DNA of 64,000 nt from an uncultured Acidilobus sp. JCHS. GTDB taxonomy: Archaea; Thermoproteota; Thermoprotei_A; Sulfolobales; Acidilobaceae. This document shows, piece after piece, positions 2,785 to 12,814 of the stretch (its first letter is position 1; the number at the start of each line of letters is the position of its first letter). Where the stretch lies: positions 124,001 through 188,000 of the forward strand of contig AYMD01000008.1 in NCBI GenBank assembly GCA_000495735.1, written 5' to 3'. The notes beneath the pieces are model-generated. The model searched no databases and was not told the DNA's origin. It saw nothing but the letters and a program-made list of their open reading frames with translations. A program made the position numbers and the translations under genes.

Positions 2785-2844
2785 CCTGACTTCCTCCCCG
2801 CCTTTACAGGAACCCTCGCCCTTCAGGGCGGGGAGGAGGTCAGG
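2785..2844. repeat. 18-bp inverted repeat hairpin resembling an IS200/IS605 (TnpB-type) element end
   Basis: The arms 2785-2802 and 2827-2844 are complementary over 18 bp with a single G-T wobble, around a 24-base loop. Inside the right part is a second hairpin, CGCCC-TTCA-GGGCG (2817-2830), followed by GGGAGGAGGTCAGG. From memory this layout, a GC-rich hairpin followed by GGAGG(A/G)GTCAGG, recurs at the ends of IS200/IS605 and TnpB-only elements in archaea. No tnpA or tnpB gene is nearby, so this would be a solo end or a minimal MITE-like relic. It could also be an unrelated transcription terminator hairpin. Confidence 0.5.
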
Positions 2845-3065
2845 GCGAAAGTGGCGAAGCGCACCTTTAACGCGTCCTTAGGCCTGAGCCTTTTGCCCCT
2901 GGACCTAGCAGCTATTAGAAACCTTGTGCTCTTAAGGGCTTCCTCAGAGGCTATGATGGCCGCTGCAATTATGACGCCAAGGGGGTCCTCTGCGAGGACT
3001 TCCAAGGCCCTTTGAAGGCTCTTCAGCAGAAAATGAAGAACTACCAGAATAAGGACTACAAGCAC
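2823..3065 (-). CDS. Possible small membrane protein downstream of the radical SAM gene
   Basis: An 80-codon frame begins with GTG at 3065, 50 bases after the stop of the radical SAM gene and on the same strand. Its N terminus is a strongly hydrophobic helix (LVVLILVVLHFLL), followed by an amphipathic stretch and a basic tail (AARSRGKRLRPK), a pattern fitting a single-pass membrane anchor with a cytoplasmic tail. The frame remains open for about 20 codons upstream of the GTG but has no better start there. The last residues (TSSPP) are encoded by the palindromic repeat at 2785-2844, which suggests that the original C terminus was replaced by an insertion. It is not recognised as a family and could be non-coding. 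Confidence 0.35.
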   Translation of the reverse strand: MLVVLILVVLHFLLKSLQRALEVLAEDPLGVIIAAAIIASEEALKSTRFLIAARSRGKRLRPKDALKVRFATFALTSSPP

Positions 3066-3114
3066 TAACCCCCATACGGCCAGGTAAAGATTACTTGACG
3101 ACGTTCTAAGCGTC

Positions 3115-4629
3115 CTAGGCCTTTGACCTCTCCTCCACAGCCCTCGCCGCCTCCTCCGCCTTCCTCTCTATGTAATTAATTATCCACTTGATGGCAGCCC
3201 TGACAAGGACGTACCTGGCCCCCTTGAGGTAGAACCTGTCAACTATGTCCCTGGCCCAGTACGCGCTGTGCCTCAGGGTGGCCTTGAGCAGCTCTATATG
3301 CTCATGCCTTATCTGGGTCCTCCTGAACCACTCCATGTTCTTGAAGGCCCCCATCGGCACGAAGAACATGGGCACTATGAGGCTCCTGTAGGGCCTGAGC
3401 TTTTCGACAAGCTCTGTCGTGGCCATAACGTCGTCAGGCTCCTCGCCAGGCAGCCCAGCTATCAGCGTGGCTGCCGGTATCACCTTGTGCTCATGCATTA
3501 TGCTGAAGGCCTCCTCAACGACCTCTGGCCACTTGTCGACAGGGTAAGGGGCCGACTTGGCAGGCATTATCTTCCTTGCCAGCTTAACGCTGCCCGTCTC
3601 CAAGCCGACCTCAACGCCTAGGTACGTCTGCTTCTCGCTCGAGAACATTATGTCAGTCAACTTGGTTATCAGCTTGTGCTGCTCCTGCGCGCTCTTGATG
3701 GCTGCGAGGCTCGCGTGACTCCACCCTATGGGCTCATCCGTGATCTGCCTGATGGCTGTGTGGAGCTTAAGCAGGGCCTCAGGCCTCGGCCTTACGCCAT
3801 CGGCGTAGTAGAGAAGTACGTCCTCGCTGTGCAGTATTATCCCCTTCTCCCCCTCGCTCATGTTAACCTTTATCTCCTCAATTACTCTATCCGGCGGTAT
3901 CATCCTCCAGGGCCTCAGAGTGACGCTGCAGAACTTGCAGCCCCTTGGGCAGCCCCTCATTATCTCGACGAGGCCGTTCACGCTCGCGTGCTTTATCCTG
4001 GGTATCTCCTCAATGTTCTGAGGGGTGTCAGCAGGTCCCACAAACATGTAATCAGGGAGCGGTAGCCCCTTGAGGGCCCTGTCGGCCAATGCAACTACGG
4101 CCTTCTCGGCCTCACCATCTACTACCGTGTCTATGCCCCACTTCCTCCACTCGTCAAGGGCCCAGAGCCACTGCCAGGCCGCAGGGCCTCCCACTATTAT
4201 CTTGACCCCCTTCTCCTTGGCCTTCCTGATAATGGGGCTCTCCATGAACCTCCTGAAGCTGACCCTGTTAAAGGGCTCCTTGCCAGTTATCGTCCACCAC
4301 TCGCTGCTTGGCGGACCGTAGGCAAAGAAGTCGTGGTGACCTATCATCATGACCTTCATGGTATCAAGGTGCTTACTTATGTGGTCAGGGTCGACGACTG
4401 CCGCGTTGAAGCCGGCATCAACAAGGGCGGCCTCTATCTTCCTCAGCCCATAGGGGGCTACCTTTGGTCTGCCCTCGCTGTCAACCTTAGGCTTAGGCGC
4501 TGCTATCCAGCCCCAGACCCTCTCGGGAACCCCGAAGGCAGGGCCCGTTGTCATGAAGCCCAGGAACTCGTGGTGATGATGATCTGTCATCATGCTTCTG
4601 TCAGTCGTTATCACTATGTCAAACGTCAT
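3115..4629 (-). CDS. B12-binding-type radical SAM protein of unknown function
   Basis: This 504-residue protein has the radical SAM cluster motif CPRGCKFC (Cys 227, 231 and 234) in a TIM-barrel domain. Before it lies a Rossmann-like domain with IIVGGPAAW and the VVDGEAE signature usual in cobalamin-binding-type radical SAM enzymes. A clear DxHxxG cobalamin motif is not visible, so B12 use is uncertain. The N terminus contains four consecutive histidines (17-20). The LPGEEPDD motif lies in the C-terminal half of the barrel. The ATG overlaps the TGA of the small upstream frame (4626-4781) by three bases, so the genes form an operon. Methyl transfer or methylthiolation is typical of the superfamily, but no substrate can be named. 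Confidence 0.85.
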   Translation of the reverse strand: MTFDIVITTDRSMMTDHHHHEFLGFMTTGPAFGVPERVWGWIAAPKPKVDSEGRPKVAPYGLRKIEAALVDAGFNAAVVDPDHISKHLDTMKVMMIGHHDFFAYGPPSSEWWTITGKEPFNRVSFRRFMESPIIRKAKEKGVKIIVGGPAAWQWLWALDEWRKWGIDTVVDGEAEKAVVALADRALKGLPLPDYMFVGPADTPQNIEEIPRIKHASVNGLVEIMRGCPRGCKFCSVTLRPWRMIPPDRVIEEIKVNMSEGEKGIILHSEDVLLYYADGVRPRPEALLKLHTAIRQITDEPIGWSHASLAAIKSAQEQHKLITKLTDIMFSSEKQTYLGVEVGLETGSVKLARKIMPAKSAPYPVDKWPEVVEEAFSIMHEHKVIPAATLIAGLPGEEPDDVMATTELVEKLRPYRSLIVPMFFVPMGAFKNMEWFRRTQIRHEHIELLKATLRHSAYWARDIVDRFYLKGARYVLVRAAIKWIINYIERKAEEAARAVEERSKA

Positions 4630-4781
4630 GCGCTACTCACCTCGTCTTCCCGCCATATTACTATGGTCTGGGCTATAAACTCGGACAAAACCTCCCTTGC
4701 CTTCTCCATGTAAGTTACATCATTCGACTTGACCACCACCGCGATCCTCTTAACGCCTTTCCTGAAGGCCTCCGTTAACAT
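4626..4781 (-). CDS. Small conserved-looking ORF upstream of and overlapping the radical SAM gene; start uncertain
   Basis: A frame ending with TGA at 4628-4626 overlaps the radical SAM ATG, a typical translational coupling arrangement. The first ATG is at 4781 and gives 51 residues, but the protein-like sequence continues upstream (for example NYYVIRWDPLTNGEAELRKM) to at least about 4870, without any in-frame ATG, GTG or TTG. The pattern is beta strand, amphipathic helix, then the strand RIAVVVKS and another helix, an alpha/beta fold. A TATA-like TTTTTATAG lies upstream on this strand at 4907-4915. Either a rare start codon is used, or translation starts at 4781, or a sequencing error hides the start. 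No family is recognised. Confidence 0.55.
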   Translation of the reverse strand: MLTEAFRKGVKRIAVVVKSNDVTYMEKAREVLSEFIAQTIVIWREDEVSSA

Positions 4782-4905
4782 CTTCCTTAGCTCTGCCTCT
4801 CCATTCGTGAGGGGGTCCCACCTGATTACATAATAGTTCGTCGGCTCAAGGCTTACAGGCTGCTTAGACGTCCCTAGGGCACCCCGGCCCTTTAGACTAA
4901 TAGAG

Positions 4906-4978
4906 CTATAAAAACGCCCTTCAATATTCTTTTTTCTTTTTCAAAAAAGATGTAATGTGTAAGATTCCATTTTATAAG
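4906..4978. promoter_or_regulatory. AT-rich divergent promoter region between the radical SAM operon and cdc48
   Basis: The rightward box TTTTATAAG (4970-4978) sits about 27 bases before the GTG at 5003, which implies a leaderless cdc48 message. The leftward box (CTATAAAAAC read on the plus strand, 4906-4915) faces the small ORF. Between them is a T-run/A-run tract (4928-4948) that stands out in this GC-rich region. Confidence 0.6.
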
Positions 4979-11524: not shown

Positions 11525-12814
11525 ATGCCGACATATTACATGGAGAACTACGGCTGCGCCTTAGCGGAGTTTGACGGTGCAGTGATGGCTGCCCTGTTAG
11601 AGTCTGAGGGCTATCAAAGGGTGACATCACCTGACGAGGCGGACTTAGTCATAATTAACACGTGCGCTGTCAGGCTTGACACAGAGGCAAAGATAGTCAA
11701 GAGGCTTAACGAGCTTAAGCCGCTGGTCAAAGGTAAGTTGATAGTTGCAGGCTGTCTAGTTAAGGCAAGGCCCTCCCTCATAGCCCGCGTTGCCCCGTCA
11801 GCAAGCCTTGTCTCGCCTCAGAACGTCACTAGGATTGCTGAAGTCGCGAGGTCACCTTCCAGGGTCACGCTCATAGAGGGGGAGAGGGATACAAACTTCA
11901 TGCCCCAGGTGCCGCTGAGGGATAGAATAGCCACGATCATGATATCCGAGGGGTGTCTTGACAACTGTTCCTTCTGCGAGACGAAGCTAGCCAGGAGGAC
12001 CTTAAGGTCATATCCCCCTAGGCTGATAGTTGAGAGGGTCGCCGACGCCGTTCAGAGGGGCGCTAAGGAGATCAGGTTAACGGCGCAGGACGCCGCCGCC
12101 TACGGCCTTGACCTACCAGCCAAGGTCAGGCTGCCCGACCTGTTGTCCATGATACTGGACAAGGTACCGGGGGACTACAGGATCAGGGTTGGCATGATGA
12201 CGCCTAACGAAGCCATGGAGATAATGGATGACCTCCTTGACGTCTATAAGGATGAGAGAGTGTTCAAGTTCTTTCACATACCTGTCCAGAGCGGCGATGA
12301 CAGGGTCCTCGAGATAATGAATAGGAGATATACCGTTGATGAGTTCGTTGAGCTTCACGCTAACGTCAAGAAGGCCTTCCCCGACTCGCTCTTCGCAACC
12401 GACATCATAGTCGGCCACCCAGGGGAGGACGAGGAGGCATTCATGAGAAGCGTTGAGCTGGTTAAGAGGTTGAGGTTTGAGAGGGTCTACCTGGCACAGT
12501 ACAGCATAAGGCCCAGGACCCTCTCGGCGTCAATGCCCCAGGTGCCTGAGCCTGTAAAGAAGGAGAGAAGCCTGCGCATTCTAAGCGTCATACAGGAGGT
12601 CGAGACGGAGATCTACAAGGCCTACATAGGTAGGGAGCTGAAGGCCTTGGTCACGTCGAGAGGGTTTAGGGACGGTTACTACGTGGCCAGAGCTGAGAAC
12701 TACTTCCCTATCTCAATACGGGAGGACCCTGATATTATGGGCAGGTGGATAAGAGCAAAGGTCACCGACGCCACTTACTTTGACCTAAGGGGTTATGTCG
12801 CTTCGCCTCTCTGA
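11525..12814 (+). CDS. tRNA-t6A methylthiotransferase (MtaB/CDKAL1-like radical SAM)
   Basis: A 429-residue MiaB-family enzyme: an N-terminal UPF0004 domain with three conserved Cys (YGC near residue 10, NTCAV near 46, AGCLV near 78), a radical SAM domain with CLDNCSFC (about 150), and a C-terminal TRAM-like region. Archaeal members convert t6A37 to ms2t6A37 in tRNAs decoding ANN codons. An FFHIPVQSGDDRVL motif typical of the family is present. It starts with ATG at 11525 behind a TATA-like AAATTAATA. Its last 53 bases overlap the 3' end of the opposing PIN-domain gene. Confidence 0.92.
   Translation: MPTYYMENYGCALAEFDGAVMAALLESEGYQRVTSPDEADLVIINTCAVRLDTEAKIVKRLNELKPLVKGKLIVAGCLVKARPSLIARVAPSASLVSPQNVTRIAEVARSPSRVTLIEGERDTNFMPQVPLRDRIATIMISEGCLDNCSFCETKLARRTLRSYPPRLIVERVADAVQRGAKEIRLTAQDAAAYGLDLPAKVRLPDLLSMILDKVPGDYRIRVGMMTPNEAMEIMDDLLDVYKDERVFKFFHIPVQSGDDRVLEIMNRRYTVDEFVELHANVKKAFPDSLFATDIIVGHPGEDEEAFMRSVELVKRLRFERVYLAQYSIRPRTLSASMPQVPEPVKKERSLRILSVIQEVETEIYKAYIGRELKALVTSRGFRDGYYVARAENYFPISIREDPDIMGRWIRAKVTDATYFDLRGYVASPL

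Follow-up and report, generated by a model that had tools for sequence, protein, structure and literature searches.

A GrsA orthologue in Acidilobus and a small DUF5751-superfamily gene linked to grsA and geranylgeranyl reductase in Thermoproteota

The stretch of 64,000 nucleotides analysed here (the window) belongs to an Acidilobus genome of 1.48 Mb in 13 contigs, and contains a radical SAM gene that overlaps a small open reading frame (ORF) upstream and is followed by a third, short ORF. What does this group of genes do, and do all three belong together? The preliminary description regarded them as a three-gene operon, assigned no recognised role to any member and pointed by analogy to radical SAM pairs that modify peptides or cofactors. 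The operon proved to be real, consisting of the radical SAM gene (3115 to 4629, minus strand) and a small coding ORF directly upstream of it (4626 to 4868, minus strand), which are coupled by an overlap of 4 bp (4626-4629). A putative archaeal TATA element of the operon (TTTTATA, within 4895 to 4912, minus strand) was recognised by alignment of the upstream DNA and is also kept in two other Acidilobus genomes. The layout therefore holds for two genes and not for the third, which is a truncated, unrelated gene lying outside the conserved unit. The closest relatives in our searches were the Acidilobaceae archaeon UBA162 and a genome of the same genus, presumably that of Acidilobus saccharovorans.

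Identity of the radical SAM enzyme

The 504-aa product of the radical SAM gene was searched against the 2,225,959-bp contig of genome G042, which we take to be Sulfolobus acidocaldarius DSM 639. The best match, at 1353564-1355024 on the minus strand, showed 55% identity over the full length; a second match was found at 199,619, and no other strong relative was present there. ORF calling gave a distance of exactly 12 ORFs from the best-match gene to pyrE, across the pyr cluster. Since pyrE of S. acidocaldarius is Saci_1597, this distance identifies the locus as Saci_1585, the gene for GrsA (radical SAM GDGT ring synthase A). Orthologues with about 50-86% identity were found in most of the 147 genomes of the order, and a paralogue with 30-37% identity in many. 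In a maximum-likelihood tree, the window gene and the S. acidocaldarius gene fell within one clade of 38 rows (support 100/100), with GrsB and a second Acidilobus copy outside it. We concluded that identity, synteny and phylogeny establish the window protein as a GrsA orthologue, which adds one more member to a family already known; the statement that none of the three genes has a recognised role was thus mistaken for this one. The full-length orthologue shares with Saci_1585 the CX3CX2C motif and the arrangement of a Rossmann-like N-terminal part followed by the radical SAM domain. The two differ in their surroundings, because the Acidilobus grsA is coupled to a small partner gene, whereas the gene upstream in Sulfolobus is an unrelated 80-aa ORF.

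Orthology to GrsA makes the probable substrate a membrane tetraether lipid, not a peptide, a cofactor or a tRNA. The idea of a peptide- or cofactor-modifying pair was accordingly rejected on the identity, pyrE synteny and tree given above: the radical SAM protein belongs to a family whose substrate is known and unrelated to peptides, although the part of the proposal that couples the enzyme to a small partner stands. In S. acidocaldarius, GrsA has been shown to introduce C-7 rings into the membrane-spanning GDGT lipids (PMC8473941, PMC9385802), and by orthology the window enzyme would make C-7 cyclopentane rings on GDGT. The GDGTs of Acidilobus sulfurireducens carry cyclopentane rings, the number of which responds to pH and temperature (PMC5487899, PMC7312580).

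The sequence features that had drawn attention to this protein are present, namely the motif C227-P-R-G-C231-K-F-C234 and four consecutive histidines at residues 17-20. Pfam analysis detected Radical_SAM with an E-value of 2e-11; the Rossmann-like N-terminal domain was seen only as a weak, sub-threshold match to the B12-binding-like PF02310 (E 3e-4). An alignment of 45 GrsA orthologues showed that CX3CX2C is invariant and that no cysteine beyond C227, C231 and C234 is near-invariant, so that cysteines for an auxiliary cluster are lacking. The same alignment contains a conserved [ND]HHGKEFLGF motif with the consensus [ND]-H-H-G-K-E-F, in which H17 is near-invariant and H18 common, and the positions of H19 and H20 are usually occupied by G and K. 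The four-histidine run thus reflects local variation within this motif; the His-rich N terminus lost its standing as a special feature, and a special metal site there was rejected. A B12-dependent enzyme was also rejected, because the window protein lacks the cobalamin motif DxHxxG and the PF02310 match is below cut-off, as was a tRNA methylthiotransferase (MiaB/RimO), since the scores of these models are far under their cut-offs and S. acidocaldarius GrsA gives the same pattern. It is extremely improbable, we consider, that the enzyme is another GDGT- or tRNA-modifying protein resembling GrsA. The low-scoring, unspecific matches to MiaB/RimO-type and B12 radical SAM models, and the several Grs-like paralogues present in many organisms, would be in keeping with such a protein, but the full-length identity to Saci_1585, the well-supported clade and the equally poor MiaB-type scores of S. 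acidocaldarius GrsA argue against it.

GrsB (Saci_0240) and the second Acidilobus Grs-like copy (G000 C9:85847, within locus L124, G000 C9:84500-88500) belong to the same superfamily branch with about 30% identity to GrsA and form clades separate from it; no partner gene was detected beside any GrsB-like locus examined. The second Acidilobus protein, which also occurs in A. saccharovorans (L060), groups with a few Desulfurococcaceae-type sequences and with neither GrsA nor GrsB. It possibly represents a third ring-forming or lipid-tailoring activity.

Both GrsA and the partner were absent from the Aeropyrum and Ignicoccus genomes in the searches across the 147 genomes of the order. These genomes presumably include Aeropyrum pernix (G027), A. 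camini (G069) and Ignicoccus hospitalis (G017). We had expected the tetraether synthase Tes, recognised by its match to the structure 7TOL, to be missing from Aeropyrum as well; this expectation was wrong, because Tes was present in the Aeropyrum and Ignicoccus genomes, including 3 of the 4 genomes of the Aeropyrum genus group. The absence of GrsA there thus supports a role in ring formation only loosely. The Tes orthologue of G027 and G069 shows about 57% identity. Aeropyrum pernix has been reported to contain no tetraethers or traces of them (PMC5487899).

The downstream reading frame

The 80-aa ORF downstream of grsA (2823 to 3065, minus strand) had been considered a possible membrane anchor. 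In relatives, the ORF at this place encodes a full-length LPG_synthase_TM or flippase-like integral membrane protein (PF03706 / TIGR00374) of about 300-344 aa, and the gene was intact in all five Acidilobus and Caldisphaera relatives checked (L006-L010). When the intact gene of A. saccharovorans was used in tblastn, only residues 61-100 or so matched at the window ORF, and no convincing match was found elsewhere in the window. What is left is a 5' stub, a pseudogene remnant cut beside a right-end hairpin of the IS200/IS605 TnpB type (2785 to 2845, plus strand). Sequences like this hairpin occur about 17 times across the genome, one of them directly 3' of an OrfB_IS605/TnpB gene; the copy in the window is a remnant with no transposase beside it. 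Among the loci examined, the flippase-like gene follows grsA only in Acidilobus and Caldisphaera, and elsewhere different genes are found, often a methionyl-tRNA-synthetase-like ORF, which shows that it lies outside the conserved unit. We concluded that what remains as the third ORF comes from an unrelated membrane-protein gene in decay, and a membrane anchor as a third component was rejected.

The small partner gene and its relationship to DUF5751

Searching 51 genomes of the phylum with the small ORF as a single sequence returned only itself, and a profile was required to find relatives. Profile A2, built from 17 partner proteins with the Acidilobaceae excluded, was run on the 147 genomes of the order and matched 40 places. 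Thirty-three of these lie directly upstream of grsA (16 of them, the window gene included, were not in the profile), 6 lie directly upstream of the gene for geranylgeranyl reductase (GGR), and the last match is fragmentary and lies where a contig ends. The wider profile A4, which includes the window sequence, matched 45 places in 250 genomes of the phylum: grsA follows at 33 of them, of which 21 come from outside the order, GGR follows at 11, and 1 lies elsewhere. Conserved adjacency, by which the preliminary description proposed to check the pair, is thus strongly positive within the order and beyond it, and its pointer to lipid genes was also right. The small alpha/beta ORF directly 5' of grsA measures about 80-86 aa in Acidilobus and Caldisphaera and about 110-130 aa elsewhere, and the distance from its stop to the start of grsA ranges from -7 to +47 bp. 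Although the partners have drifted to about 20% identity, the linkage covers many families and two lipid genes. As judged from gene order, it shows a functional association with grsA and GGR, not binding. In the literature searched, from which many subscription papers fell outside, there was no mention of DUF5751, of a GrsA partner or of this linkage; as far as we found, the conserved partner has not been described so far.

The linkage has its exceptions. No partner was detectable beside grsA in Sulfolobaceae, Pyrodictium-like and Thermoproteaceae-like genomes, which indicates that grsA does not strictly require a partner beside it. In the Sulfolobaceae, the partner position upstream of grsA is taken by a different conserved ORF of 78-89 aa with no Pfam family (L040 4092-4331). 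In Acidilobus, the gene that precedes GGR does not belong to the partner family. A third location was found in two genomes of one family (G061 and G098), in which a DUF5751-like copy lies directly downstream of cysS and before a zinc-finger-like gene (L121 2911-3234 and L122 3015-3368, respectively).

Is the small ORF of the window a gene at all? Profile A2 matched it with an E-value of 6e-5 and profile A4 with 1.4e-20, the dN/dS of about 0.2 within Acidilobus indicates purifying selection, and AlphaFold predicted a folded alpha/beta protein with a pLDDT of 89. We concluded that the ORF is coding. A RiPP precursor peptide was rejected, because the predicted product is a folded protein and not a leader-core peptide. 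Homology places the coding start near 4868, and no ATG, GTG or TTG is found there; the TTG with which the two nearest relatives start is not a start codon in the window copy. The first ATG, at 4781, would give a product of only 51 aa, with strand 1 (YYVIRW) and most of helix 1 left upstream. A rare start codon, an assembly error or early decay may lie behind this, and the lack of a normal start codon could mean that the window partner is weakly expressed or beginning to decay.

The GGR-linked members of the family are the Pfam family DUF5751 (PF19025), with E-values down to 1e-54. DUF5751 was found in 21 of 21 Sulfolobaceae-type genomes (f11) and in 3 genomes of a second family (f4), it adjoins the GGR catalytic domain by coordinates in all 24, and no genome had more than one match in the DUF5751 search. 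In S. acidocaldarius it directly precedes the GGR whose structure has been solved (3ATQ/4OPC). The Sulfolobaceae GGR loci L096, L089, L091 and L092 likewise have DUF5751 directly 5' of GGR. The window protein itself scored 13.6 bits (E 0.06) against PF19025, under the gathering cut-off of 27 bits, and most grsA partners fail this cut-off, although some exceed it (L104 with 28.5 bits and G043 with 30.5 bits). In the reverse direction, profile A2 matched Sulfolobaceae DUF5751 at an E-value of about 1e-6. Alignment of profiles by hhalign gave 1.5e-7 between the Acidilobaceae partners and the others (A2) and 2e-12 between DUF5751 and the grsA partners, and 2RBG, the structure of the DUF5751 protein ST0493, was among the Foldseek matches of both predicted partner models (TM 0.61 and 0.56), none of which was below an E-value of 0.001. 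When the partner profile was compared with the sequences of the PDB, nothing convincing came up. The unity of the partner family follows from the hhalign values together with the presence of 2RBG in the Foldseek lists, and by these profile and fold comparisons the window partner, of about 80 aa, is a distant, short branch of the DUF5751 superfamily. ST0493 and the grsA partners are alike in their alpha/beta fold pattern (the TM of 0.61 is that of a full-length grsA partner), their lipid-gene neighbourhood and their single copy; they differ in that DUF5751 proper is linked to GGR and not to grsA and has about 116 aa, of which the C-terminal third is missing in the Acidilobus copy. The linkage to GGR offers a functional lead for the orphan structure 2RBG.

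Possible role of the partner

GDGT rings underlie the tolerance of archaea to acid and heat, and they are also the basis of the TEX86 palaeothermometer. PMC9385802 raises the question of how GrsA gains access to lipid carbons in the membrane interior, given that it is not an integral membrane protein. The conserved linkage suggests that the partner family is an overlooked helper of membrane-lipid synthesis. Most likely, and we hold this with moderate confidence, the two genes form a lipid-modification operon in which GrsA has the small protein as its adaptor or as an accessory subunit. GrsA would carry out the radical SAM chemistry, in which a 5'-deoxyadenosyl radical abstracts hydrogen and a C-C bond is formed on the GDGT chains; the small protein, made in step with GrsA, may bind it and help it to reach or hold the membrane-buried lipid. 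The Sulfolobaceae encode the same single-copy protein with GGR, which makes it probable that the family acts in the tailoring of lipid chains as a pathway and is not devoted to a single active site. GrsA and GGR are both peripheral or soluble and come from different superfamilies, and that these two lipid-chain enzymes have a neighbour in common fits a role in lipid access, docking or coordination. More tentatively, GrsA in many Thermoproteota may be a complex with a small DUF5751-superfamily subunit that also serves the GGR of Sulfolobaceae, as a shared lipid-access or hand-over factor linking saturation to ring closure. Counting against a subunit, S. acidocaldarius GrsA was reportedly assigned from gene deletion and is not known to have a partner.

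The linkage of one single-copy family to either of two genes from unrelated superfamilies in one pathway would also suit a protein that regulates or coordinates the pathway, for instance a lipid or redox sensor that modulates GGR and GrsA and so ties ring formation to chain saturation, and not a structural subunit of GrsA. This is a less probable alternative: no ligand-binding signature is known, and the Rossmann/flavodoxin-like fold, with no PDB match below an E-value of 0.001, is uninformative. That the partner has nothing to do with lipid chemistry, its position being historical or serving translational coupling only, appears unlikely. Operon neighbours may persist by chance in a lineage, and two genomes do carry the gene at the third location; however, the association has survived across many families and with two lipid genes at about 20% identity, and selection on the partner is purifying within Acidilobus. 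A dedicated electron-delivery partner for the radical SAM cluster and the FAD of GGR is more doubtful still. The GGR of Methanosarcina acetivorans performs better with a neighbouring ferredoxin-like protein, GGR-ferredoxin synteny is missing in crenarchaea, and PMC9385802, the source of these statements, also poses the question of what reduces many GGRs. The M. acetivorans pair resembles the present one in having a small gene beside a lipid-chain redox enzyme, but its partner is ferredoxin-like, whereas the alignments of our family contain neither conserved cysteines nor an obvious cofactor motif, which makes electron transfer by the partner unlikely. This small family tied to GrsA and GGR is a concrete candidate in the questions of lipid access and of the GGR reductant; its structure is available as 2RBG, and S. 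acidocaldarius is a host open to genetic work.

A further radical SAM domain was found in the window at 11939-12460 (plus strand), within an open frame of 435 aa (PF04055, E 7e-26).
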